Both the position numbers and the translations under genes were made by a program. 47,880 nt of DNA from Flavobacteriia bacterium (lineage in GTDB: Bacteria; Bacteroidota; Bacteroidia; Flavobacteriales_D; Crocinitomicaceae), in NCBI GenBank assembly GCA_947446925.1, contig CANFHU010000020.1, positions 1-47,880 of the forward strand. Direction: 5' to 3'. The first letter of the stretch is position 1; every line of letters starts with the position of its first letter. The notes under the pieces are model-generated. The model was not told the origin of the DNA and ran no database searches. It was given only the letters and a program-made list of their open reading frames with translations. Shown here in pieces: positions 34,205-46,337 of the stretch.

Positions 34205-35026
34205 ATGGAGAAAAAGAGAATACTTTTTGTATCACAAGAAATCACCCCGTTTTTACCAAAAACAGAATTATCTCACACAGCAAGAAAGTTACCGCAAGGT
34301 ATTCAAGATGCGGGTAAAGAAATCCGTGTTTTTACTCCGAAGTTTGGAGGTATAAATGAACGTAGACATCAATTACATGAAGTGATTCGTTTGTCAGGAA
34401 TGAATTTAATTATTGATGATAAAGATCATCCATTGATTATCAAAGTAGCTTCTATTCCAACAGCAAGAATGCAAGTGTATTTTATTGATAATGAAGAGTA
34501 TTTTAAAAGAAAAAACACTGTTACAGAAGAGGATGGAAGTATGTTTGCTGATAATGACGAACGTTCTATGTTTTTCTGTCGTGGAGTACTTGAGACAGTT
34601 AAGAAATTAGGCTGGCAACCAGATGTCATTCACTGTCATGGATGGATGGCTTCTTTAATGCCATTGTATATTAAAAAGAATTACAACAAAGACCCTCATT
34701 TTGCCGATACGAAGGTAGTAGTTAGTTTGTATGATAATGGATTTCAAACTCCATGGGATAGTCGTTTTGCTGAAAAGTTAGCTTTTGAAGGTTTTGACTC
34801 TGATGTAACTGAAGGTGTAAAAGACCCAAGTTATTTCAATGTAATGCAAACAGTATTGAAATATGCAGATGGAGTAACAGTAGGGAGTGAGGTTTTAGAT
34901 GAGAACTCTACTAAATTATTCGATGAAGCGAATTGCATTAAGTTGGCTTATTCTCCTGAAGAGCAGCAAGTGAAAGCATTGTCTGAATTTTTTGATCGTG
35001 TTATCGAGGATGAAGTACTAGCATAA
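34205..35026 (+). CDS. Glycogen/starch synthase N-terminal (GT5) domain protein
   Basis: 273 residues matching only the N-terminal Rossmann half of GT5 enzymes: ILFVSQEITPF, a helix-forming LPQGIQDAGKEIRVFTPKFGGI, VYFIDNEEYF, and DVIHCHGWMASLMPLY. The C-terminal GT1 half (nucleotide-sugar grip) is absent. The ADP-glucose loop, KxGG in true synthases, reads PKTELSHTARKLP here, so the two glycines are lost. Catalysis is unlikely; a regulatory or binding role is inferred. It precedes a DUF4270 lipoprotein and glmS, a common Bacteroidota gene order. Confidence 0.82.
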   Translation: MEKKRILFVSQEITPFLPKTELSHTARKLPQGIQDAGKEIRVFTPKFGGINERRHQLHEVIRLSGMNLIIDDKDHPLIIKVASIPTARMQVYFIDNEEYFKRKNTVTEEDGSMFADNDERSMFFCRGVLETVKKLGWQPDVIHCHGWMASLMPLYIKKNYNKDPHFADTKVVVSLYDNGFQTPWDSRFAEKLAFEGFDSDVTEGVKDPSYFNVMQTVLKYADGVTVGSEVLDENSTKLFDEANCIKLAYSPEEQQVKALSEFFDRVIEDEVLA

Positions 35027-35038
35027 ATTTTTTGTGAT

Positions 35039-36307
35039 TTGAAACGAATATTTTTACTGTTATTAGTAGGCTGTTTTTTGAATTCTTGTAAAAAAGAGAT
35101 TTCTAGTGCTGGACTTAATTTATTAAATAAAGAAAACGATGCTTTTGGCAGTGTAGATACTTTTGCGTTGAAAGTTGGTTCGATTTATGTAGATACCGTA
35201 ACGTCTTCCAATCCATCTTATTTGATGTTGGGTTCGTATATGGATCCAGTATTCGGTAAATACGACGCTGGATTTTATGCACAAGCAAGAATTTCCGCAT
35301 TAAAACCTGATTTTGGAGATGAAACTAAAATTGCAGTAGATTCTTTAGTGTTAGGAATGCGATTTTCCGATTATTACGGAAAGTTAGACGAGCAAACTTT
35401 TGAAGTGTATGAAATTACACAAGATTTGTCTGCAACAGGCGCGTACAATACCAAATCTTCGGTTTCAATAAAAGCAGAGAATTTGGTGTTACCTAATTCT
35501 TGTAAATTGACACCTAAACCTTTTGGATATAAATTTACTGAATTTGTGAATGACACTGTTCGAGATAATATTCGGTTACAATTAAATCCAAGTTTAGCAC
35601 AACGATTTATTTCAGATTCGAAAAATTCTCCTGTAAATTTTGCAACAATGGATGCTTTTCTAACCTATTTTAAAGGGTTGCATGTTAAAGTTTCTAATAG
35701 CAATCAACAAAGTGGAACAGGAGGTGTTATGTCTTTCGCGTATCCACCTGTGTTAACAATATATTATAAGTTAGCTGGAGTTGCTAAGAAATTTTATTTT
35801 GAATTAAATGCAAGCGGTGTTCGTTTTAACCATGTGGAATGTGATTATGCAGGGACAGAGGTAGAAAAGTTAGTAAATGCACAAATTACAGATCAAAAAG
35901 ACTTTTATGCACAAGCAAATCATGTTCGAGGAACGGTAAGTCTGCCTACCATTAAAGATATACCGAATAATTCAATCATCCATTTTGCTAAATTGATTTT
36001 ACCTATCAATTATTCAAACACAAATTTATATGGTTTAAGTAATGAGTTGTATGTATCCATCCCTAACTCCTCCACTGATCAAACATTGAGATATATTACA
36101 AGTGGGGTATTAGATACTACATATAATGGTTATGTAGTTGATGTAAGAGATCACATACAACAAGTAATTACTGGGAAAAGATTGAATCACCCTTTAGTAG
36201 TTTCGCCTAAATTTTTTAGTTTGAGTGCGGAAAGAATACATTTCATAGGTCCCAAAACACTTGGTTCGGATAAACCAAGATTGTTAATTAAATATTCAAC
36301 TTTTTAA
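35039..36307 (+). CDS. DUF4270 family lipoprotein
   Basis: 422 residues starting at TTG 35039; no ATG fits, and the lipoprotein signal MKRIFLLLLVGCFLNSC ends in a clear lipobox (C17). The mature part starts KKEISSAGLNLL and contains strand-rich segments (VDSLVLGMRFSDYYGKLDEQTFEVYE, DHIQQVITGKRLNHPLVV) typical of DUF4270. It is probably exposed at the outer membrane or periplasm; the function is unknown. It begins 12 bases after the GT5-like gene and ends 11 bases before glmS, which supports one operon. Confidence 0.85.
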   Translation: MKRIFLLLLVGCFLNSCKKEISSAGLNLLNKENDAFGSVDTFALKVGSIYVDTVTSSNPSYLMLGSYMDPVFGKYDAGFYAQARISALKPDFGDETKIAVDSLVLGMRFSDYYGKLDEQTFEVYEITQDLSATGAYNTKSSVSIKAENLVLPNSCKLTPKPFGYKFTEFVNDTVRDNIRLQLNPSLAQRFISDSKNSPVNFATMDAFLTYFKGLHVKVSNSNQQSGTGGVMSFAYPPVLTIYYKLAGVAKKFYFELNASGVRFNHVECDYAGTEVEKLVNAQITDQKDFYAQANHVRGTVSLPTIKDIPNNSIIHFAKLILPINYSNTNLYGLSNELYVSIPNSSTDQTLRYITSGVLDTTYNGYVVDVRDHIQQVITGKRLNHPLVVSPKFFSLSAERIHFIGPKTLGSDKPRLLIKYSTF

Positions 36308-36318
36308 ATTTCAAGAAT

Positions 36319-38163
36319 ATGTGTGGAATTGTAGCTTATATCGGAAAGAAAGAGGCTTATCCAGTGTTAATTAAAGGATTAACACGTTTGGAATACAGAG
36401 GTTATGACAGTGCAGGTATCGCTTTATTAGACGGAGAAGAGTTAAATTTATATAAAAAACAAGGTAAAGTTGCTAATCTTGTAGCTTTTGCTGAGGGGCA
36501 AAATATTCATGGTCATGTGGGTATTGGCCATACGCGTTGGGCTACACATGGTGAACCAAACGACATCAATTCACATCCACATTACTCGATGGATAAGCGT
36601 ATTGCAGTAATTCACAATGGGATAATTGAGAATTATGATACCTTAAAACAAGAGTTAATAAAAAGAGGTTATATTTTTAAAAGTGAAACGGATACAGAAG
36701 TGTTGGTTCATTTGATAGATGATATTCAAAAAACAGAACATACTACACTTGTTGAATCTGTTAGACAAGCCTTACAAAGTGTAGTCGGTGCGTATGCTTT
36801 AGTCGTTATTTCTGTAGATAATCCGACGCAACTTATTGCAGCTAGAAAAAGTAGTCCTTTAGTAGTTGGGATAGGTGAGGATAATGAATTTTTCTTGGCT
36901 TCAGATGCTACACCTATCGTTGAATATACGAATCAAGTTGTTTACTTGAATGATGAAGAAATTGCGGTTGTCGACATTCACGAAGGTTTACGAATTACAA
37001 ATATTAATAATCAAGAAAAGACTCCATACATACAAGAATTAGAACTTCATCTAGAAGCTTTGGAGAAAGGCGGGTATGAACACTTCATGATGAAAGAAAT
37101 TTTTGAACAACCTAGATCGATTCACGATTGTTTTAGAGGTCGTTTAAATGCAGCAGAAGGATTTGTTTCTCTTGGTGGATTTAAGGATTATGAGAATCGT
37201 ATTTTGAATGCAAAACGTATTGTTTTTGTTGCTTGTGGAACTTCTTGGCATGCATGTCAAGTTGGAGAATATTTGATTGAAGATCTAGCGAGAATTAACG
37301 TAGAAGTGGAGTATGCGAGTGAATTTAGGTATCGCAACCCAATTATCGGAGAAGGAGATGTAGTTATTGCTGTTTCTCAATCTGGAGAGACTGCAGATAC
37401 TTTAGCTGCATTGGAAATCGCAAAATCAAGAGGTGCAATTATTTTTGGTATTTGTAATGTGGTAGGTTCTTCTATTTCTCGTATTACGGACGCAGGATCC
37501 TATACGCATGCAGGACCTGAGATTGGTGTTGCATCCACAAAAGCATTTACTGCGCAAGTTACAGTTCTTACCTTATTAGCGTTGCGTTTAGCATCTAAGA
37601 AAGATTCTTTAAGTAGAATTCGTTTTAGAACCTTACTATCCGAACTGGAAGCGATACCAGAAAAAATTAAGCGTGTTTTAGAGAAAGATGCAATTATTAA
37701 AGATATTGCGGCACATTATAAAGATTCTGCTAATGCACTTTATTTAGGAAGAGGAAGTTCTTTTCCAGTTGCTTTAGAAGGTGCTTTGAAATTAAAAGAG
37801 ATTTCTTATATCCATGCGGAGGGATATCCTGCAGCTGAAATGAAACATGGACCAATCGCCTTAATTGATGCTGAGATGCCAGTTTTTGTTATCGCTACCA
37901 AAGGTACTTCCTATGAAAAAGTTGTAAGTAATATTCAAGAAGTTAAAGCCCGAAAAGGTAAAATTGTTGCAATAGTAACAGAAGGGGACGTACAAGTTAA
38001 AGCAATGGCAGATCACGTGATTGAAATACCAGACACGGATGAGCATTTAGTTCCTTTATTAGCAACTATTCCATTACAATTACTATCTTATCATATTGCA
38101 GTTATGCGTGGTTGTAATGTAGATCAACCAAGAAATTTAGCGAAATCGGTTACCGTTGAGTAA
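36319..38163 (+). CDS. glmS: Glutamine-fructose-6-phosphate aminotransferase (isomerizing)
   Basis: 614 residues. The N-terminal glutaminase domain starts MCGIVAYIG with nucleophile C2, and contains GHTRWATHGEP and HNGIIENY. Two SIS domains follow (VACGTSWHA, SQSGETADTL, then LGRGSSFPVALEGALKLKE) and the conserved end DQPRNLAKSVTVE. It makes glucosamine-6-phosphate for peptidoglycan and lipopolysaccharide. No riboswitch-ribozyme of the glmS type precedes it; the gene is 11 bases after DUF4270. A strong bidirectional terminator follows at 38184. Confidence 0.97.
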   Translation: MCGIVAYIGKKEAYPVLIKGLTRLEYRGYDSAGIALLDGEELNLYKKQGKVANLVAFAEGQNIHGHVGIGHTRWATHGEPNDINSHPHYSMDKRIAVIHNGIIENYDTLKQELIKRGYIFKSETDTEVLVHLIDDIQKTEHTTLVESVRQALQSVVGAYALVVISVDNPTQLIAARKSSPLVVGIGEDNEFFLASDATPIVEYTNQVVYLNDEEIAVVDIHEGLRITNINNQEKTPYIQELELHLEALEKGGYEHFMMKEIFEQPRSIHDCFRGRLNAAEGFVSLGGFKDYENRILNAKRIVFVACGTSWHACQVGEYLIEDLARINVEVEYASEFRYRNPIIGEGDVVIAVSQSGETADTLAALEIAKSRGAIIFGICNVVGSSISRITDAGSYTHAGPEIGVASTKAFTAQVTVLTLLALRLASKKDSLSRIRFRTLLSELEAIPEKIKRVLEKDAIIKDIAAHYKDSANALYLGRGSSFPVALEGALKLKEISYIHAEGYPAAEMKHGPIALIDAEMPVFVIATKGTSYEKVVSNIQEVKARKGKIVAIVTEGDVQVKAMADHVIEIPDTDEHLVPLLATIPLQLLSYHIAVMRGCNVDQPRNLAKSVTVE

Positions 38164-38249: not shown

Positions 38250-39305
38250 TCAATCTCTTTCTTTCAACCATGCGGTAACCGCTGGAGATAATTCTTTTTG
38301 TGATTTACCACCTACAAAAACACCAATGTGCCCTCCTTCAAACTTGTAAATACTTTTATCCTTAGATCCTACGTAATCATTTAAAGGAATCGTAGAAGAT
38401 GGAGGTACCAAATGATCATGCACAGCATAGATATTCATAAGTGGCATGGTCAAGTTTTTTAAATCTACTTTTTTATCCCCTACAACTAATTCTCCTTTAA
38501 TTAATTTATTTTGTTGGTATAAATCTTCCATAAATTGTAAGAAACAAGTACCTGCTTGATCTGGACTTTCAGCAATCCATTTTTCCATACGAAGAAAGTT
38601 CAATAATTTTGTTTTGTCTTCCATCGCATTTAATAAACCTGTTGATTTATGAACCTTCATCATCGGTTTAAGCATATCAAATCCATCATTTAAAAATGAA
38701 CCTGGTATTAAGCCGTCAAATCCATCTACCAAGCTTTTAAAATCCATGTCTTTACTCCATCGAAACAATAAACCGTCGTTTTGTTCAAAATCAATAGGAG
38801 TAACATGTGTCACTAGATTTTTAATTTTCTCAGGGTGTAATGCTGAATAAATGACACTGAATGTTCCTCCTTGACAAATACTTAATATATTGATTTTATC
38901 CACTTTGTTTTCTGTTCTCACAAAATCAACACAATTATCAATATATCCATTGATATAATCATCCATGGAAAGGTATTTATCCATTTTGGTAGGTTTTCCC
39001 CAATCAATTAGATATACATCTAAACCAGCATCAAGTAAATTTTTTATGTAACTTCTATCAGGTTGTAAGTCTAGCATTTGGTATGTGTTCACCAATGCAT
39101 AAACAATTAGAACAGGAGTTTTATAAGATGACTTGGTTGTTCTAGTATAACGATAAAGCGTTAATTTATCTTCTTTATAAACAACATCTTTTGGAGTAGA
39201 TGCAATATCCACTTCTTTTATCTCGGAAAGATTTTCAAATCCTTTTAAGATTTTAGATGTGTTGTCCGATAACTCGTGGAGTAAGTTTGCTTGATTTAAA
39301 TGCAT
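38250..39305 (-). CDS. phaC: PHA synthase, class III-like
   Basis: 351 residues, close to the class III PhaC length. An alpha/beta-hydrolase fold with the synthase triad: C144 in SICQGGTFS, D297 in VHDHLVPP, and H326 in EGGHIGVFVGG. IDWGKPTKMDKYLSMDDYI is another synthase block. The box differs from the usual GxCxG by a serine at the first glycine. It should polymerise (R)-3-hydroxyacyl-CoA into polyester on granules. Upstream on the same strand are a PhaE/phasin-like gene and phaB; an intrinsic terminator precedes phaC, so its transcript level should be lower than theirs. Confidence 0.9.
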   Translation of the reverse strand: MHLNQANLLHELSDNTSKILKGFENLSEIKEVDIASTPKDVVYKEDKLTLYRYTRTTKSSYKTPVLIVYALVNTYQMLDLQPDRSYIKNLLDAGLDVYLIDWGKPTKMDKYLSMDDYINGYIDNCVDFVRTENKVDKINILSICQGGTFSVIYSALHPEKIKNLVTHVTPIDFEQNDGLLFRWSKDMDFKSLVDGFDGLIPGSFLNDGFDMLKPMMKVHKSTGLLNAMEDKTKLLNFLRMEKWIAESPDQAGTCFLQFMEDLYQQNKLIKGELVVGDKKVDLKNLTMPLMNIYAVHDHLVPPSSTIPLNDYVGSKDKSIYKFEGGHIGVFVGGKSQKELSPAVTAWLKERD

Positions 39306-39323
39306 AACGTATTTTTTTTGGCT

Positions 39324-39353
39324 AAAAAAAAGGGAAACCTAAATTTCCCTTTT
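39324..39353 (-). terminator. Intrinsic terminator/attenuator between the PhaE-like gene and phaC
   Basis: On the minus strand AAAAGGGAAA (39353-39344) pairs with TTTCCCTTTT (39337-39328) around a 6-base loop, followed by more T. It lies about 20 bases before the phaC start and after the stop of the granule-protein gene. Confidence 0.8.
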
Positions 39354-39373
39354 CATTGATTGTATAAAAAAAA

Positions 39374-40738
39374 TTAAACTGTAGTAACTTTTTTAGCGGT
39401 AGTTGTAGTTTTTTGAGCAACAACTTTCTCTGTAGTATTTACTTTGTTTTCTAAATTTTTAATTGTTTTCTTTAAATCATGAATCGTTTGGTATAACTCA
39501 TTTAATTCAGATTTAACAACTAATGGTAATGCTTCAATTTTGTTTTCGAATTGGAATTCAAGATTTTTTTTGATATCCAAAGACAAAGTTGTCAATTCAC
39601 CTTTTAATTTAGAAAATTCTTCCGTAGCAAATAATTTTGTGTAATGTTTTTCATTTAAACTAACCCACTCATTGAAAAATGGTTGGAAACTTGACGTGAA
39701 AGTTACATCTTTTGCTTTTTCAGTTACTAAGTTAGCTGCATCTTTCGCTACATTTTGTCCTGTAGTATAAAGCAAATATTGTAATTCAGCTAATTTCGTG
39801 CTGTATACAGAAGCTTTATCAATAGCTGTGATTGCTAATTCAATGTTTTCTTTCTCTTTAGTATTAGAAACTAATTTCAAAAGCGGAGCAAATAATTCAG
39901 AATAAGAATTGTTAACAGTACTGAAAGTGTTGTTAAATTTAGCGAAATCACCAGAAATTAAATGTGGGAATTTCTCTGTAAAAGTACTCCAGTATGTTTG
40001 AAATTCTTTATTTGTGTTTTTTTGAGTTTCAAAGAAATTTTGAACAAATTTCGTGTTATTCTCAAGTAATGAATTTAAGTTGTTGCTTGGGAAAAAGTTT
40101 TGAAACAATTCTTCTGTTATTTTTTTGTAATGCGTTGGTTCGAAAACTTGTTTGATACTGTCAACTGAAAAAGTATTTGTGTTGAAAGCATTAAACAAAG
40201 GTTGGTAAAATTCTTGCAACTTGTAGTACAGAGCATTTGTATTCAATGCATTTTTGAATAAATCTACATTGAAAGTATCTTTAGGTAAAGTTTTAGTTAA
40301 AGATTCAAAAGTAGAATTTAACGTTTTAGTCCAAGATTCAAACAAAGTATTCCATGTAGTATTAGCATGTAATAAATGTTCATTTGTTTCCGTAGTTGTT
40401 TTTCCAAAACTTGAAAGAGAATTATACAAATTCAAATTGAAGTCAGTTGCTTTTTTTATTGCATCTAATTGGTTTGTATAGATGTTTTTGTAAAAATCTT
40501 CTGCTTTTTCAGTAGTGAAATTCGTATTGAAAGGCACGTCTAATTTACTGTCTGTAGATAAGTTTTTGAAAATAGACATTTGAGATTCCCACCAGTTTTT
40601 ATAAATTTCAGTAGATTTTTCAAAAGCGTTATCTGATTTCAAAGCCTCTTGAAATTTATTCGCTGTTTCAACAAAGGAGTTAATCGCTTTAGTTTGTGTC
40701 TCAACAACTGTATCTAATATTTGTTTTGTGTTATTCAT
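39374..40738 (-). CDS. PhaE/phasin-like granule protein
   Basis: 454 residues, mostly amphipathic helix, with no membrane span or signal. The N-terminus has IYKNWWESQMSIFKNL, like the start of PhaE and phasin proteins. The middle repeats helical units rich in Asn, Thr, Phe and Tyr, including LAELQYLLYTTGQNVA. The C-terminus has a short coiled coil (YQTIHDLKKTIKNLENKV) as in PhaE, then a Lys/Thr/Ala tail. A class III synthase needs a PhaE subunit, so its place beside phaC fits. Length exceeds usual PhaE (~350), so it could instead be a long phasin. Confidence 0.7.
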   Translation of the reverse strand: MNNTKQILDTVVETQTKAINSFVETANKFQEALKSDNAFEKSTEIYKNWWESQMSIFKNLSTDSKLDVPFNTNFTTEKAEDFYKNIYTNQLDAIKKATDFNLNLYNSLSSFGKTTTETNEHLLHANTTWNTLFESWTKTLNSTFESLTKTLPKDTFNVDLFKNALNTNALYYKLQEFYQPLFNAFNTNTFSVDSIKQVFEPTHYKKITEELFQNFFPSNNLNSLLENNTKFVQNFFETQKNTNKEFQTYWSTFTEKFPHLISGDFAKFNNTFSTVNNSYSELFAPLLKLVSNTKEKENIELAITAIDKASVYSTKLAELQYLLYTTGQNVAKDAANLVTEKAKDVTFTSSFQPFFNEWVSLNEKHYTKLFATEEFSKLKGELTTLSLDIKKNLEFQFENKIEALPLVVKSELNELYQTIHDLKKTIKNLENKVNTTEKVVAQKTTTTAKKVTTV

Positions 40739-40771
40739 ATTATTTTTTCTTTATTTTTAAAGTTATCTGTA

Positions 40772-40803
40772 CAAATTTCAACCATTTAAATGGAATAACC
40801 AAA
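40772..40803 (-). promoter_or_regulatory. Promoter of the PhaE-like gene
   Basis: On the minus strand TTTG (40803-40800) and GAAATTTG (40779-40772) are separated by 20 bases, close to TTTG/TAnnTTTG. The ATG follows about 34 bases on. The -7 element has one mismatch. Confidence 0.4.
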
Positions 40804-40842
40804 AAAAGTTAGTATAATTTTTTAGATTGTTTGTAATTTTAT

Positions 40843-41586
40843 TTACATATAAAGTCCACCATTGATATTCAAGCATTGACCTGTAACATATGGAGCGTCA
40901 ATTAAAAAGGCTACTCCTTTAGCAATATCAGAAGGACTACCTAGGGATGCTGCAGGAATTTTAGAAACAATAGATGCCAAAACTTCACTTGGCATAGCAG
41001 CAACCATTTCTGTTTTGATGAAACCAGGGCATATGCAGTTGACTGTTATTCCGTACTTTGCAGTTTCAAGAGCGAGTGATTTAGAGAATCCAATTAGCCC
41101 CGCTTTTGCTGCAGCATAATTGGTTTGACCAAATCCTCCAGATTGTCCAATCACAGAACTTATATTGATAATTCTGCCGTATTTTTGTTCAATCATTTTA
41201 TGAATTGCTAACTGAGAAGTGTTATATGCACTTGAAAGATTGGTGTTAATTACTTCGTCCCATTCTGTTTTTTGCATTTTACGGAACGACTTATCACGTG
41301 TTATCCCCGCATTATTTACAAGGATATCCACTTGTCCGTAAGCAGATTCTATTTCTTTAAATAGACGTTCGCTTTCTTCCGCTAAGGCTATGTTCGCTTG
41401 AATTGCTATTGCATTACCACCTTGTTTTTTAATTTGTGTTACAATGGCATTTGCTTCATCGACTTTTGTATTATAGTTTACAATTATGTTGAATTCTTTT
41501 TTGCCAAGTTCTAATGAAATAGCAGCGCCGATTCCTCTAGAACCACCTGTAACTAAAACTGTTTTAGTTGTATTATTAAGATCCAT
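40843..41586 (-). CDS. phaB: Acetoacetyl-CoA reductase / 3-oxoacyl reductase (SDR)
   Basis: 247 residues of the FabG/PhaB group: TGGSRGIG at 13-20, VNNAG in the middle, and the active-site NISSVIGQSGGFGQTNYAAAKAG with Ser-Tyr-Lys. PhaB reduces acetoacetyl-CoA with NADPH to (R)-3-hydroxybutyryl-CoA, the phaC substrate. FabG cannot be excluded on sequence alone; the name rests on the neighbours. It lies upstream of the PhaE-like gene with a 104-base gap containing that gene's promoter, and diverges from the PhaJ-like gene. Confidence 0.85.
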   Translation of the reverse strand: MDLNNTTKTVLVTGGSRGIGAAISLELGKKEFNIIVNYNTKVDEANAIVTQIKKQGGNAIAIQANIALAEESERLFKEIESAYGQVDILVNNAGITRDKSFRKMQKTEWDEVINTNLSSAYNTSQLAIHKMIEQKYGRIINISSVIGQSGGFGQTNYAAAKAGLIGFSKSLALETAKYGITVNCICPGFIKTEMVAAMPSEVLASIVSKIPAASLGSPSDIAKGVAFLIDAPYVTGQCLNINGGLYM

Positions 41587-41715
41587 AACTCAAAGTTTTA
41601 TATGGTGAAACATTTTGTTTTTAGTTTTTAAAAGTTACATATAAATATTCATTTTTATCTATATCATTCTTTCTTTTTTATTTGTAACTTTCCAATTCGT
41701 ATTAAATACTGAATT

Positions 41716-42129
41716 ATGAGTGAAAAGTTACATTTAAATCAAACATTTTCAACTGATTTCTCATTTAGTCAACAAGACGTTGCCGATTTTGCACGCGTAA
41801 CAGGAGATAATAATCCTGTGCATTTGGATGAGGATTTTGCAGCCAAAACGATTTTTAAAACTAGAATTATGCATGGTATGTTGGGTGCTTGTGTATTTTC
41901 GAAGGTTTTTGGAACTATGTTTCCTGGAGAGGGGACAATCTATTTAAGTCAGTCTGTTAATTTTTTGAAGCCGATGTATGTGGATACAAAGTATAATGCT
42001 GATTTTGAGGTGTTGGAGATATTAGAGAAAAATCGTGCACGTATCTCGACTTCGATTCTTTCCCAAGAAGGAAAAAAAGTAGTTGTCGGAGAGGCTGTTG
42101 TTATGAATCTTGAAAAAATAGGTGAGTGA
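41716..42129 (+). CDS. phaJ: MaoC-family (R)-enoyl-CoA hydratase, PhaJ-like
   Basis: 137 residues, a single hot-dog fold. The hydratase-2 motif runs VTGDNNPVHLDEDFA, with D31 and H36 at the same numbering as in Aeromonas caviae PhaJ, followed by RIMHGMLGACVFSK and LKPMYV. PhaJ hydrates trans-2-enoyl-CoA from beta-oxidation to (R)-3-hydroxyacyl-CoA for the synthase. It heads the plus-strand gene group; the following hydrolase gene overlaps it by 4 bases (GTGA), so the two are translationally coupled. Confidence 0.85.
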   Translation: MSEKLHLNQTFSTDFSFSQQDVADFARVTGDNNPVHLDEDFAAKTIFKTRIMHGMLGACVFSKVFGTMFPGEGTIYLSQSVNFLKPMYVDTKYNADFEVLEILEKNRARISTSILSQEGKKVVVGEAVVMNLEKIGE

Positions 42130-42923
42130 TTTGTAAGTCAGAGGATGCTAAATCGATTTATTTTGAAGAAGTTGGAAATCTAACTTCGGATAAGTCGCTT
42201 GTTTTTTTGAATGGACTTTCACAATCAACGATTGCTTGGGGTTTTATGTTGCCATATTTTGAGCAATCATATCGAATAATACTATTAGATTTTATTTTTC
42301 AAGGTCAATCCGAAAAATCTGGAGATGTTCGTGATTTTGATCAACATGCGAGAGATGTGATAGCAGTTTTGGATACATTGTCTATTGAAAGAGCGACTTT
42401 TATAGGCTTATCCTACGGAAGTTTGGTGGCGCAACATCTAGGTGTAAATCATTCGCAAAGAGTAGATAAATTATGTCTGATGTCTACATTTGCAAATAAA
42501 ACACCTTATTATGAAGCGATTGAATTATCTTGGAGAAGAGCTTTAGATTTTGGAGGTTATGGTTTAATGTTGGATGTCATGTTACCATTTGTTCTTGGAA
42601 CATCCTATTTTTCTCATCCCTTAATACCTATCGATATGTTAAAAGCAGCGCGTAAAGATCTAGTAGATGCAACTGCTCTTGGTAAATTGATGGATGCTAC
42701 CCATGCACGCAAGGATTATCGTTCCAGTTTAACTAAAATAGTAGCACCTACGATTGTGATACATGGAAGACAAGATGCTTTGTTTTCGGTGGAATTAGGT
42801 AAATCGGTGGCGGATCATATAGTGAACAGTCAATTTGTAGTGATTGAAGGTGCGGGACACACATTAAATTTGGAAGAAGTAAAATTAGTTTCAGAAACAA
42901 TACTAAAATTTTTAAACAAGTAA
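42126..42923 (+). CDS. Alpha/beta hydrolase in the PHB gene group
   Basis: 265 residues from GTG 42126, whose TG overlaps the preceding stop. Triad candidates are S96 (FIGLSYGSLVAQ), D217 (HGRQDALFS) and H245 (GAGHTLN). The layout is that of small esterases, lactonases and lid-bearing hydrolases; the substrate is unknown. From context it may act on PHB oligomers or hydroxybutyryl-CoA, but typical intracellular depolymerases (PhaZ1 type) are larger and differ. It is followed 1 base later by the hydroxybutyrate dehydrogenase gene, so the genes form one operon. Confidence 0.75.
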   Translation: MICKSEDAKSIYFEEVGNLTSDKSLVFLNGLSQSTIAWGFMLPYFEQSYRIILLDFIFQGQSEKSGDVRDFDQHARDVIAVLDTLSIERATFIGLSYGSLVAQHLGVNHSQRVDKLCLMSTFANKTPYYEAIELSWRRALDFGGYGLMLDVMLPFVLGTSYFSHPLIPIDMLKAARKDLVDATALGKLMDATHARKDYRSSLTKIVAPTIVIHGRQDALFSVELGKSVADHIVNSQFVVIEGAGHTLNLEEVKLVSETILKFLNK

Positions 42924-42924
42924 G

Positions 42925-43692
42925 ATGAAAGTTGCTTTAATTACAGGAAGTACTAGCGGTATAGGACTTGGTATCGCAAAAGAATTTGCTAAATCTGGAT
43001 ACGCTATTGCTTTCAATGGGTTAGAAGAAAATGGTGCCGAAATAGCACAAGAAGTTGGGGAAATCTTTGGTGTAAAAACGCATTTTTATGGTGCGGATTT
43101 ACGTAAATCAGAACAAATTTATCAAATGATTCAAGATGTTGAATCCAATTTTGGTCATATAGATGTATTGGTAAATAATGCTGGGATACAATTTGTCTCT
43201 CCTATAGAAGATTTTCCAGTTGAAAAATGGAATGCTATTATTGATATCAATATGAATTCTGTTTTTCATGCATCAAAAGGTGTATGGAAGGGGATGAAGA
43301 AAAGAGGTTTTGGTAGAATAATTAATATAGCATCTGCTCATGGATTGGTTGCCTCTCCATTTAAATCAGCTTATGTGACGGCAAAACATGGTGTTGTAGG
43401 TATGACGAAGACACTTGGATTGGAAGGAGCACCATTTGGTATAACCGTAAATGCTATTTGTCCTGGGTATGTAAAAACACCATTGGTAGAGAAACAAATT
43501 AAAGAACAAGCACTAGCACATGGAATTCCAGAAGAAGAAGTAGTTTCAAAAATAATGTTGGAGAAACATGCTGTAAAAGAATTTGTTACTGTAGAAGATT
43601 TAGGAATGTTAGCTGTCTTTTTAGCGTCTGAATCTGGAAAATTAATTACTGGTACCGCAATGCCAGTTGATGGTGGTTGGACCGCACAATAG
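42925..43692 (+). CDS. bdhA: 3-hydroxybutyrate dehydrogenase
   Basis: 255 residues, the usual length of short-chain D-3-hydroxybutyrate dehydrogenases. TGSTSGIG (7-14) binds NAD. VNNAGIQ, NIASAHGLVASPFKSAYVTAKHG (Ser-Tyr-Lys site), ICPGYVKTPLVEKQI and the HGIPEEEVVSKIML insert identify the family. The enzyme oxidises (R)-3-hydroxybutyrate, the product of PHB breakdown, to acetoacetate. Together with the hydrolase and patatin it forms the mobilisation side of the cluster. Confidence 0.9.
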   Translation: MKVALITGSTSGIGLGIAKEFAKSGYAIAFNGLEENGAEIAQEVGEIFGVKTHFYGADLRKSEQIYQMIQDVESNFGHIDVLVNNAGIQFVSPIEDFPVEKWNAIIDINMNSVFHASKGVWKGMKKRGFGRIINIASAHGLVASPFKSAYVTAKHGVVGMTKTLGLEGAPFGITVNAICPGYVKTPLVEKQIKEQALAHGIPEEEVVSKIMLEKHAVKEFVTVEDLGMLAVFLASESGKLITGTAMPVDGGWTAQ

Positions 43693-43698
43693 AAAGTT

Positions 43699-44724
43699 AT
43701 GAAAGAGAAACATGTAGGAGTTGCATTACAAGGAGGCGGAGCGCATGGTGCGTTTACGTGGGGAGTATTGGATCGTTTGTTAGAGGTAGATGAAATCGTT
43801 GCAGATGGAATGGTCGGAACAAGTGCTGGAGCTATCAATGCTGTAGTTACTGCTTATGGTTTACATATTGGGGGAAAAGCAAAAGCGAAGGAGTTATTAG
43901 ATAGACTATGGAAAGATATTGCACTTTCTGGTAATGTTATGTTTAAACCTTCTTTTATGGATTCTATGTTTTCCAATGGAGATATGCATAATACACCTGG
44001 CTACATGATGTTTAATGCGATGACACAATTTTTGTCGCCTTATCAAATGAATCCGGCTAATATTAATCCTTTACGTGAAATTCTAAATAATCTTGTTGAT
44101 TTTGAAGAATTGAGACGTTATAATAAAAAGCGTTTATTTGTTTGTGCAACCAATGTAAAGACAAATAGAGCAAAAGTTTTTTCAAATGCTGAAATGACTG
44201 TAGATGCTGTTTTAGCTTCTGCTTGTTTACCTTATTTGTTCCAAGCGGTAGAAATTGATGGTGAATTTTATTGGGATGGAGGTTATATGGGGAATCCTCC
44301 GTTATTTCCATTAATTGAAAATACGGATATACACGATTTACTCTTAGTAAAAATTAATTCCATTAATATTAAAGATGTTCCTACATCTGCACGCGATATT
44401 GAAGATAGAATTACAGAAATTTGTTTCAATAGTAGTTTAATCAATGAAATGAAATTAATTCATTATCGTAATGAGTTGGTTCGTAAGGGAGTAGATTTAC
44501 AAGATGGAAAACATTCCAGAGAGATTTTTGTGCATTCGATTTCTGCGCATGAAGCGTTAGGGCATATGAAGCATTCAAGTAAAATGAATACTTCGTGGGA
44601 GTTCTTACTTGAATTGAAACAGAAAGGTCGGATATATGCTGAAAAATGGTTACAAGAAGAATATCATTTGGTAGGAGTTAAATCTACCTTTGATGTTGAA
44701 AAACATTTCTTTGATAAGTATTGA
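43699..44724 (+). CDS. Patatin-like phospholipase with DUF3734 tail
   Basis: 341 residues. The patatin oxyanion and catalytic sites are QGGGAHGAFTWG (11-22), GTSAG with S42, and DGGYMGN with D193, a complete Ser-Asp dyad. After residue ~225, RDIEDRITEICFN and HSISAHEALGHMKHSSKMNTSWEFL match DUF3734, the extension present in patatin proteins paired with hydroxybutyrate dehydrogenases in proteobacteria. It starts 7 bases after the dehydrogenase. A granule-surface esterase acting on PHB or on the granule lipid layer is inferred. Confidence 0.87.
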   Translation: MKEKHVGVALQGGGAHGAFTWGVLDRLLEVDEIVADGMVGTSAGAINAVVTAYGLHIGGKAKAKELLDRLWKDIALSGNVMFKPSFMDSMFSNGDMHNTPGYMMFNAMTQFLSPYQMNPANINPLREILNNLVDFEELRRYNKKRLFVCATNVKTNRAKVFSNAEMTVDAVLASACLPYLFQAVEIDGEFYWDGGYMGNPPLFPLIENTDIHDLLLVKINSINIKDVPTSARDIEDRITEICFNSSLINEMKLIHYRNELVRKGVDLQDGKHSREIFVHSISAHEALGHMKHSSKMNTSWEFLLELKQKGRIYAEKWLQEEYHLVGVKSTFDVEKHFFDKY

Positions 44725-44730
44725 TGTCGC

Positions 44731-45402
44731 ATGAAAAACGGTTTTCGAATCTTATTTACAGTTCTCGTTAGTGTTCTGTTTTTCATCGTTTTTTATTTAA
44801 GTATAGCTTTTATTTGTGCTCGTATTTCAGTTAATGATGTAGTTTCTAAGGAAGGAAATGTTACTGTGTATATTAAGTCTAATGGTGTACATACTGATTT
44901 AGTTCTTCCTGTAAAATCGAGAAAACTGGATTGGTCTAAAATTTTCCCGTATGCTAATACGAAAGGCAAAGACTCTACTTCTAAATTATTAGCCTTGGGG
45001 TGGGGGGATAAAGGTTTTTATTTAAATACTCCAACCTGGGGAGATTTAACCTTAAGTACTGCTTTTAAAGCCATGTTTGGTTTGAGTACTTCTGCTTTAC
45101 ATACAACCTATCTGGATACGATTCAAGTATCAGGTACATGTAAAAAGATTTTGATGACGCAGAATGAATACGATTTATTAGTTCGTTACATTAAGCGAAC
45201 AATTAGTACGAAAAGAGGTAAATCCATTTTCATACCAACCAATGCGGTGTACGGAACAAATGATGCATTTTATGAGGCAAGTGGAAGTTACCATCTCTTT
45301 AGTACATGCAACACATGGACTAATCGTGCATTAAAATATTCAAATAAAAAAGCATGTTTTTGGACCCCTTTTGACACGGGAATTTTAAATCAATATCCAT
45401 AA
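44731..45402 (+). CDS. DUF2459/TIGR02117 family membrane-anchored protein
   Basis: 223 residues. One N-terminal span (ILFTVLVSVLFFIVFYLSIAF) anchors a mostly extracytoplasmic domain: VYIKSNGVHTDLVLPV, LGWGDKGFYLNTPTWGDLT, TYLDTIQVSG and CNTWTNRALKYSN. These are the DUF2459 hallmarks (H, D, W, C, N in a papain-like arrangement is possible). No function is established. It begins 7 bases after the patatin gene, so it closes the operon. Confidence 0.8.
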   Translation: MKNGFRILFTVLVSVLFFIVFYLSIAFICARISVNDVVSKEGNVTVYIKSNGVHTDLVLPVKSRKLDWSKIFPYANTKGKDSTSKLLALGWGDKGFYLNTPTWGDLTLSTAFKAMFGLSTSALHTTYLDTIQVSGTCKKILMTQNEYDLLVRYIKRTISTKRGKSIFIPTNAVYGTNDAFYEASGSYHLFSTCNTWTNRALKYSNKKACFWTPFDTGILNQYP

Positions 45403-45476: not shown

Positions 45477-46337
45477 ATGAAAGGAATCATTTTAGCCGGA
45501 GGTTCTGGTACAAGATTACATCCGTTAACATTGGCAATAAGTAAGCAGTTAATGCCAATTTATGATAAACCAATGATTTATTATCCCTTATCGGTATTGA
45601 TGGGAGCAGGTATAAAAGAAATTTTAATTATTTCTACACCACACGATTTACCACATTTTAAACGCTTGTTAGGTGATGGAAGTCGTTTGGGTTGCACTTT
45701 TGAATATGCTGAACAGCCTGAACCGAATGGTTTGGCACAAGCGTTTGTAATTGGGGAAGAGTTCATCGGTTCTGATAGTGTTGCATTAATATTAGGGGAT
45801 AATATTTTCTATGGTGCAGGTATGCATGAACTACTGAAAGAAAACTTAAATCCAGATGGCGGAATTGTATATGCATATCATGTAAGTGATCCAGAACGGT
45901 ATGGTGTGGTAGAATTTGATGCTGAAATGAATGCGCTTTCTATTGAAGAGAAACCACTTAAACCACGTTCCAATTACGCTGTTCCTGGACTATATTTTTA
46001 CGATAATTCGGTGATAGAAATAGCTAAAAATTTGGAACCTTCTGCGCGAGGGGAATATGAAATTACGGACGTTAATTCGGAATATTTGAGACGTAAAAAA
46101 CTTAAAGTTTCCATGTTAAGCCGTGGAACTGCTTGGTTAGATACTGGAACATTTCCTTCTTTAATGCAAGCAGGACAATTTGTTCAAGTGATAGAAGAGA
46201 GGCAAGCTTTGAAAATAGGATGTATTGAGGAAATTGCATTTAGAAATGGTTTTATTTCGAAAGAGCAATTGATCGATATTGCAAAACCTTTAGTTAAAAG
46301 TGGGTATGGTACCTATTTAATGTCGATACTATCTTAA
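45477..46337 (+). CDS. rfbA: Glucose-1-phosphate thymidylyltransferase
   Basis: 286 residues, the RmlA/RfbA length. The activation motif [17 protein letters not shown] is at the start, followed by [36 protein letters not shown] and [13 protein letters not shown], and WLDTGT near the end. It makes dTDP-glucose for rhamnose and other deoxysugars. No rfbB, C or D follow; its stop overlaps the polyprenyl synthase start (TAATG). Confidence 0.95.

Follow-up and report, generated by a model that had tools for sequence, protein, structure and literature searches.

How does a bacterium that builds polyhydroxybutyrate (PHB) release it again when its genome encodes no recognisable depolymerase of the classical PhaZ type? 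PHB mobilisation in such organisms is an unsettled question, and it is raised by a locus of eight genes in a Flavobacteriia bacterium of the family Crocinitomicaceae (assembly GCA_947446925.1, contig CANFHU010000020.1, positions 1 to 47,880; these 47,880 nucleotides are hereafter the window). The locus consists of two divergent arms, with three genes on the minus strand (phaC, phaE and a phaB-like reductase gene) and five on the plus strand: maoC, abh (an alpha/beta hydrolase), bdh, pat (a patatin) and a DUF2459 gene. From its gene content, conservation and distribution we regard it as a real, conserved PHB cycle locus, whose breakdown arm probably degrades PHB. It is reasonably likely that this one locus encodes a compact storage cycle, in which a patatin depolymerase of the type of PhaZh1 from Haloferax mediterranei would feed a 3-hydroxybutyrate (3HB) dehydrogenase, BdhA, while abh would act on the polymer or its oligomers. 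A preliminary description of the locus had been right in outline, as its observations were partly confirmed and its interpretation is partly supported: all eight open reading frames, their coordinates and strands and the divergent two-arm arrangement were recovered, the arms being separated by a spacer of 129 bp with 18.6% GC (guanine plus cytosine; 41587..41715).

The minus strand encodes an ordinary class III synthesis arm for polyhydroxyalkanoate (PHA). PhaC (38250..39305), with 351 amino acids, has the length of a class III catalytic subunit (~350) and scores 452 bits on TIGR01836 (cut-off 365), and Cys144, Asp297 and His326, which we take to be its catalytic triad, are kept in 52 of 52 aligned PhaC sequences. 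The adjoining phaE (39374..40738; 454 amino acids) encodes the second subunit and scores 71 bits on PF09712 (cut-off 25.7). The pair resembles known class III PhaC-PhaE synthases in these two profile matches and in the adjacency of the genes, but differs from them in a divergent PhaE that stays below the TIGR01834 cut-off (49 bits; cut-off 155). The third protein, a short-chain dehydrogenase/reductase (SDR; 40843..41586), is a probable acetoacetyl-coenzyme A (CoA) reductase of PhaB/FabG type, with 292 bits on TIGR01829, just under the cut-off of 302, 286 bits on the FabG-type model PRK12824 (cut-off 269) and 202 bits on the PhaB model NF042966 (cut-off 436).

As to the breakdown of the polymer, the absence of a recognisable classical PhaZ, first claimed for this arm, extends to the entire assembly as far as three models reach. 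TIGR01849 (classical intracellular PhaZ) gave a single match, on phaC itself, with 19.1 bits against a cut-off of 300.75, and PF10503 gave no match, with a Caulobacter control positive for both; on NF050089 (intracellular short-chain PHA depolymerase) nothing exceeded the cut-off of 300, and no control genome passed either.

The plus arm offers candidates instead. It opens with maoC (41716..42129; 137 amino acids), a PhaJ-type (R)-enoyl-CoA hydratase scoring 68 bits on PF01575 (cut-off 27) and displaying, at residues 31-36, D-x-N-P-x-H, which we take to be the signature of PhaJ-type hydratases. The following abh (42126..42923) matches PF00561 with 78.5 bits (cut-off 25.8), and its Ser96, Asp217 and His245 are invariant in 27 aligned homologues. 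Next, bdh (42925..43692; 255 amino acids) encodes a 3HB dehydrogenase with 357 bits on TIGR01963 (cut-off 307) and the SDR motif Y150xxxK, and pat (43699..44724; 341 amino acids) a patatin with 90 bits on PF01734 (cut-off 27.7) and an intact set of GGGxH, GxSxG and DG motifs, here GGGAHG, GTSAG and DGG. Adjacent plus-arm genes either share 4 bases or stand 1 to 6 bases apart (6 bp from the end of bdh to pat, and 6 bp from pat to the DUF2459 gene), as would be seen in an operon. With these scores the protein identities first proposed were upheld for seven genes, the reductase being only PhaB-like given its score below the TIGR01829 cut-off. The exception was the label patatin-DUF3734, which we dropped: PF12536 (DUF3734) did not match pat at E values up to 10, and a search of the genome with it found none, the control genomes being silent as well.

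Distribution carries the argument further. We searched one set of 396 Bacteroidia genomes for phaC, pat, bdh, abh and DUF2459 and found a PHA synthase in 66, of which 41 are class III over the TIGR01836 cut-off and 25 are others at E <= 2.1e-25, a line drawn after seeing the list, with the next genome at 2.0e-8; two of the 25 (G193 and G109) are fragments, and 'class I-like' for the other 23 refers to frames mostly of ~600 amino acids. All 36 genomes with pat and all 39 with abh carry a synthase (Fisher p = 3e-33 and 2e-36, respectively, ignoring kinship), and neither gene was found in any of the 330 genomes without one. The limits for pat (E <= 1e-30) and abh (E <= 1e-40) had been set before the searches, and since the weakest listed matches reached 2.3e-100 and 3.1e-50, no match lay near them. 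Of the 45 genomes with bdh (E <= 1e-80; 44 of the matches exceed the curated cut-off), 43 have a synthase. The association also persists among families, 20 of which contain a synthase: pat occurs in 8 families and abh in 9, all of them among these 20 (p ~1e-5 and ~2e-6, for a total of 73 families, the highest family number encountered). Since, in this sample, they occurred only in relatives able to make PHA, pat and abh are strong contenders for the breakdown enzymes that are otherwise missing.

In one family, f41, pat and abh are both absent from the sequence fetched on either side of phaC, yet both co-occur with the synthase, so that here co-occurrence does not stem from linkage; in one f41 genome (G290), bdh is ~3.4 kb from phaC. 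Twelve of the 17 pat-bearing f41 genomes contain a second patatin copy of ~50% identity (G051, G119, G148, G196, G218, G239, G257, G273, G324, G358, G374 and G389), and in G051, G119, G148, G218, G273 and G389 its matched stretch contains a flagged stop.

Within the genus, class III phaC was present in 12 of 13 genomes including the window's own, the miss (G007) being 74% complete. Of 11 congener loci that we fetched, 9 retain the seven-gene order phaC-phaE-phaB and, divergently, maoC-abh-bdh-pat, and the remaining two (L047 and L052) lie at contig ends; this bears out the early remark that genes for synthesis and breakdown stand side by side. Outside the genus, 16 of 40 class III loci have a maoC homologue within the sequence fetched near phaC, and in 15 of the 16 it is on the strand opposite to phaC. 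PHA production had also been called uncommon in Bacteroidota, and this is true of the closest relatives (no synthase in the 14 family members outside the genus or in 3 genomes from the rest of the order) but less so of Bacteroidia, given the 66 of 396 genomes above. Earlier counts of Bacteroidetes genomes gave 13 with class III, 12 with class I and 1 with class II synthases (PMC8312272), and PHA synthase genes were scarce or absent in most seaweed-degrading members (PMC9676036), so that PhaC in the phylum was already known but sparse; our sample differs in make-up from those published. In the PhaC tree the genus forms one clade (100/100) beside f41 (90/86). Such a clade amid synthase-free family members would reflect either transfer or repeated loss, and the GC content of the phaC-to-pat stretch does not stand out (32.4% versus 33.8% for the whole window). 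Horizontal gain was set aside as an explanation, since tree and GC do not separate the two.

The breakdown genes are linked elsewhere, too. We found pat and bdh adjacent in G018 (family f9) and in three of four pat-bearing f28 genomes (G038, G078 and G210), and in f37 they lie within 2 kb of each other in five of six class III genomes, with abh within 2 kb of pat in five of six. Two f21 genomes with class I-like synthases (G106 and G333) show the order phaC-phaB-abh-bdh, and G018, likewise with a class I-like phaC, shows phaC-phaB-abh with bdh-pat nearby. Among named genomes, for which we surveyed the 80 top-ranking pat-like stretches out of at least 580, a bdh of at least 40% identity on the same strand and within 1.5 kb accompanies pat at 24 loci, and at 3 of 7 plasmid loci a 3HB-dehydrogenase-like gene stands directly upstream of pat (L125, L128 and L130). 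The pat-bdh pair is also present in other Bacteroidota and in Proteobacteria, with exceptions. One contig, labelled a metagenome-assembled genome of Candidatus Kuenenia stuttgartiensis (CALPRR020000067.1, locus L132, 1-11428), contains maoC-abh-bdh-pat ~61-80% identical to those of the window; its title or binning looks wrong.

We propose the following cycle. The PhaB-type reductase would make (R)-3-hydroxybutyryl-CoA, to which PhaJ may add a share from beta-oxidation. Its polymerisation on granules would fall to the class III PhaC-PhaE synthase. As an intracellular PhaZh1-type depolymerase presumed to bind granules, pat would free 3HB from native granules, abh would act on polymer or oligomers, and Bdh would oxidise 3HB to acetoacetate, which a CoA-transferase encoded elsewhere in the genome could return to acetoacetyl-CoA; the genome holds a member of the 3-oxoacid CoA-transferase subunit A family (271 bits; cut-off 128.5). 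Co-regulation of the genes is predicted as well. When phaZh1 was knocked out, PHA mobilisation in vivo did not change significantly, and the same study ascribed to PhaJ a major part in mobilisation (PMC4823750), which suggests that the plus-arm hydratase may also serve breakdown. As for abh, it is a candidate for an undescribed PHA-linked hydrolase, and the evidence, all of it genetic, points to a second PHB or oligomer hydrolase. That it represents a new intracellular PHB/3HB-oligomer hydrolase family across several Bacteroidota families, working with a PhaZh1-type patatin and BdhA in a mobilisation module distinct from every classical PhaZ, whose patatin-BdhA half would be shared with haloarchaea and Proteobacteria, is a tentative proposal to which we give slightly less than an even chance.

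Several points weigh against the proposed cycle. Neither pat nor abh is universal, as 30 and 27, respectively, of the 66 synthase genomes lack them, and both are missing in 25, including all nine class III genomes of family f13. The genomes are phylogenetically clumped, and 17 of the 36 with pat belong to f41 alone. At 56 of the best 80 named pat loci the same-strand pairing with bdh failed (four of these have bdh on the opposite strand, judged by eye at L157, L160, L183 and L189; L173 was missed through an over-extended pat frame; and only at L191 was a bdh of that kind found further away), and four of the seven plasmid loci (L126, L127, L129 and L131) have no such dehydrogenase beside pat. 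In sequence, enol-lactonase models fit abh better than any model of a PHA depolymerase does, its best NCBIfam model being an enol-lactonase at 113 bits, below that model's cut-off. The SDR beside the patatin of H. mediterranei reaches only 222 bits on TIGR01963, short of its 307. The roles of pat and abh are predictions. Besides the mild phaZh1 knockout mentioned above, that of slr0060, a patatin-domain gene of Synechocystis PCC 6803, caused only minor growth differences (PMC7203880).

These two knockouts with little effect (PMC4823750, PMC7203880) hint at a second route of PHB mobilisation, and they are also an argument for a different division of labour, in which abh would be the main granule depolymerase, analogous to PhaZ of Bacillus thuringiensis, and the patatin would have a minor or auxiliary part as a lipase at the granule surface, hydrolysing phospholipids or oligomers. 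Five synthase genomes hold abh without pat (G017, G106, G162, G333 and G397), the phaC-phaB-abh-bdh order of G106 and G333 fits such a role, and the B. thuringiensis enzyme (PDB 8ynv/8ynw), which shares the alpha/beta hydrolase fold, ranks second among the PDB matches to the abh profile, after a metagenomic alpha/beta hydrolase, MGS-M2. However, abh scores 68.4 bits on NF050089 where 300 are needed, and its predicted fold (predicted local distance difference test, pLDDT, 94.4) resembles many esterases: among fold matches Bacillus PhaZ is only the 44th chain, with a template-modelling (TM) score of ~0.8, behind ordinary esterases and lactonases, many of which fit abh better, so that the fold search indicates a general esterase/lactonase and does not decide the substrate. 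Moreover, two genomes (G047 and G241) hold pat without abh. We judge this division of labour unlikely. More doubtful still is that pat and abh are not depolymerases at all and that the plus arm is an operon for assimilation of 3HB or short esters, which travels with PHA producers through the shared use of 3HB. Many patatins are phospholipases, bdh and CoA-transferase serve the use of external 3HB as well, and bdh was found in two genomes without a synthase; but an assimilation operon would hardly explain why pat and abh occur in none of the 330 synthase-free genomes, why they follow the synthase in f41 despite the lack of linkage in the fetched phaC stretches, or which enzyme does the depolymerase job with no classical PhaZ found. 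A chance neighbourhood of ordinary lipid-metabolism genes, which the large size of the SDR, MaoC and alpha/beta hydrolase families might suggest and which already fits the equally close, unassociated DUF2459 gene, is highly improbable given the order conserved through the genus and co-occurrence across 8-9 families.

The DUF2459 gene (44731..45402, plus strand; 187 bits on PF09601, cut-off 27) had been named, along with hydrolase and patatin, as a candidate for an undescribed part of the pathway. While the latter two stood up to the co-occurrence check, the patatin as a protein with a precedent in PhaZh1, DUF2459 served as our negative control: of the 396 genomes, 81 carry it, and 16 of these have a synthase (p = 0.41); among the 14 family members that lack a synthase, 10 have it; and of the 8 congener loci that extend far enough, 6 show it after pat and two (L050 and L053) do not. 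We rejected it as a pathway member because of this missing association; in all likelihood it is an adjacent passenger that probably has no part in PHA metabolism. The family is ranked among papain-like proteins, and where it occurs elsewhere its gene neighbours were read as pointing to a urease-related pathway (PMC10318531). The structural model is confident (pLDDT 91.6), yet Foldseek gave no PDB match at E <= 0.001.

The locus is flanked by what we take to be a glmS-like gene (36319-38163) on the phaC side and an rfbA-like gene at 45477 on the other. Of the 11 congener loci fetched, 10 have the glmS-like gene next to phaC; in the remaining one, L052, phaC and phaE are present and no glmS-like gene was found in 15 kb on the phaC side, and therefore the left flank is not fixed in the genus. 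An alignment of 11 spacers (the window's and those of 10 of the 11 fetched congener loci) revealed no nameable genus-wide conserved block and no promoter motif. Just upstream of the glmS-like gene and the PHB locus, the window (34205-36307) contains a lipoprotein-like frame and, at 34205-35026, what is presumably a glycogen-synthase-like gene, so two storage polymers may have their genes close together here.

Following from our proposal, the locus names a concrete second enzyme, abh, beside patatin and BdhA, which makes a two-enzyme hypothesis testable, and the gene set could serve as a marker for PHB-cycling Bacteroidota in metagenomes. Slr0060 of Synechocystis likewise is a patatin-domain protein, proposed as an intracellular PHB depolymerase; a proteome study placed it in one group with PhaP, PhaE and PhaC, but its knockout phenotype was minor, as noted above (PMC7203880). 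MEXAM1_RS07150 of Methylorubrum extorquens, a PhaZh1 homologue (30% identity) in a proteobacterium, was suggested as a possible player in PHB mobilisation, although the accessible part of that paper mentions no pairing with bdhA (PMC6520949). Both are likened to pat by description. No patatin depolymerase from Bacteroidota was found in the literature searched at the level of titles and abstract starts, a scope outside which most subscription papers fall.

The nearest functional precedent is PhaZh1 of H. mediterranei, also paired with bdhA, so that pat is not wholly undescribed; this pair was reportedly the subject of Liu et al. in 2015. The H. mediterranei plasmid record NZ_CP039140 contains one patatin match, 35% identical to pat over 325 aligned columns (E 2e-45), which displays a GTSGG box and is encoded immediately downstream of an SDR that matches 3HB dehydrogenase models best. 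From the organism, the upstream bdhA-like gene and this box we infer it to be PhaZh1, a granule-associated patatin-like depolymerase with a Gly-Thr-Ser-Gly-Gly box encoded beside or downstream of bdhA (PMC11205408, PMC7137286); both patatin and bdhA also come up in two reviews on Haloferax or halophiles and in a paper on haloarchaeal denitrification (PMC11218638). In both systems the patatin gene immediately follows a gene for a 3HB dehydrogenase-like protein, the organism has a class III synthase, and the oxyanion, Ser and Asp motifs of the patatin are conserved. They differ in sequence (35% identity for the patatin, 33% for the dehydrogenase) and in context, as phaZh1-bdhA forms its own cluster apart from the pha cluster (PMC11205408), whereas in the window the pair shares one locus with phaC and an additional abh. 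Thus, pat is a candidate PhaZh1-type patatin that would act together with BdhA, here in the context of a new phylum.

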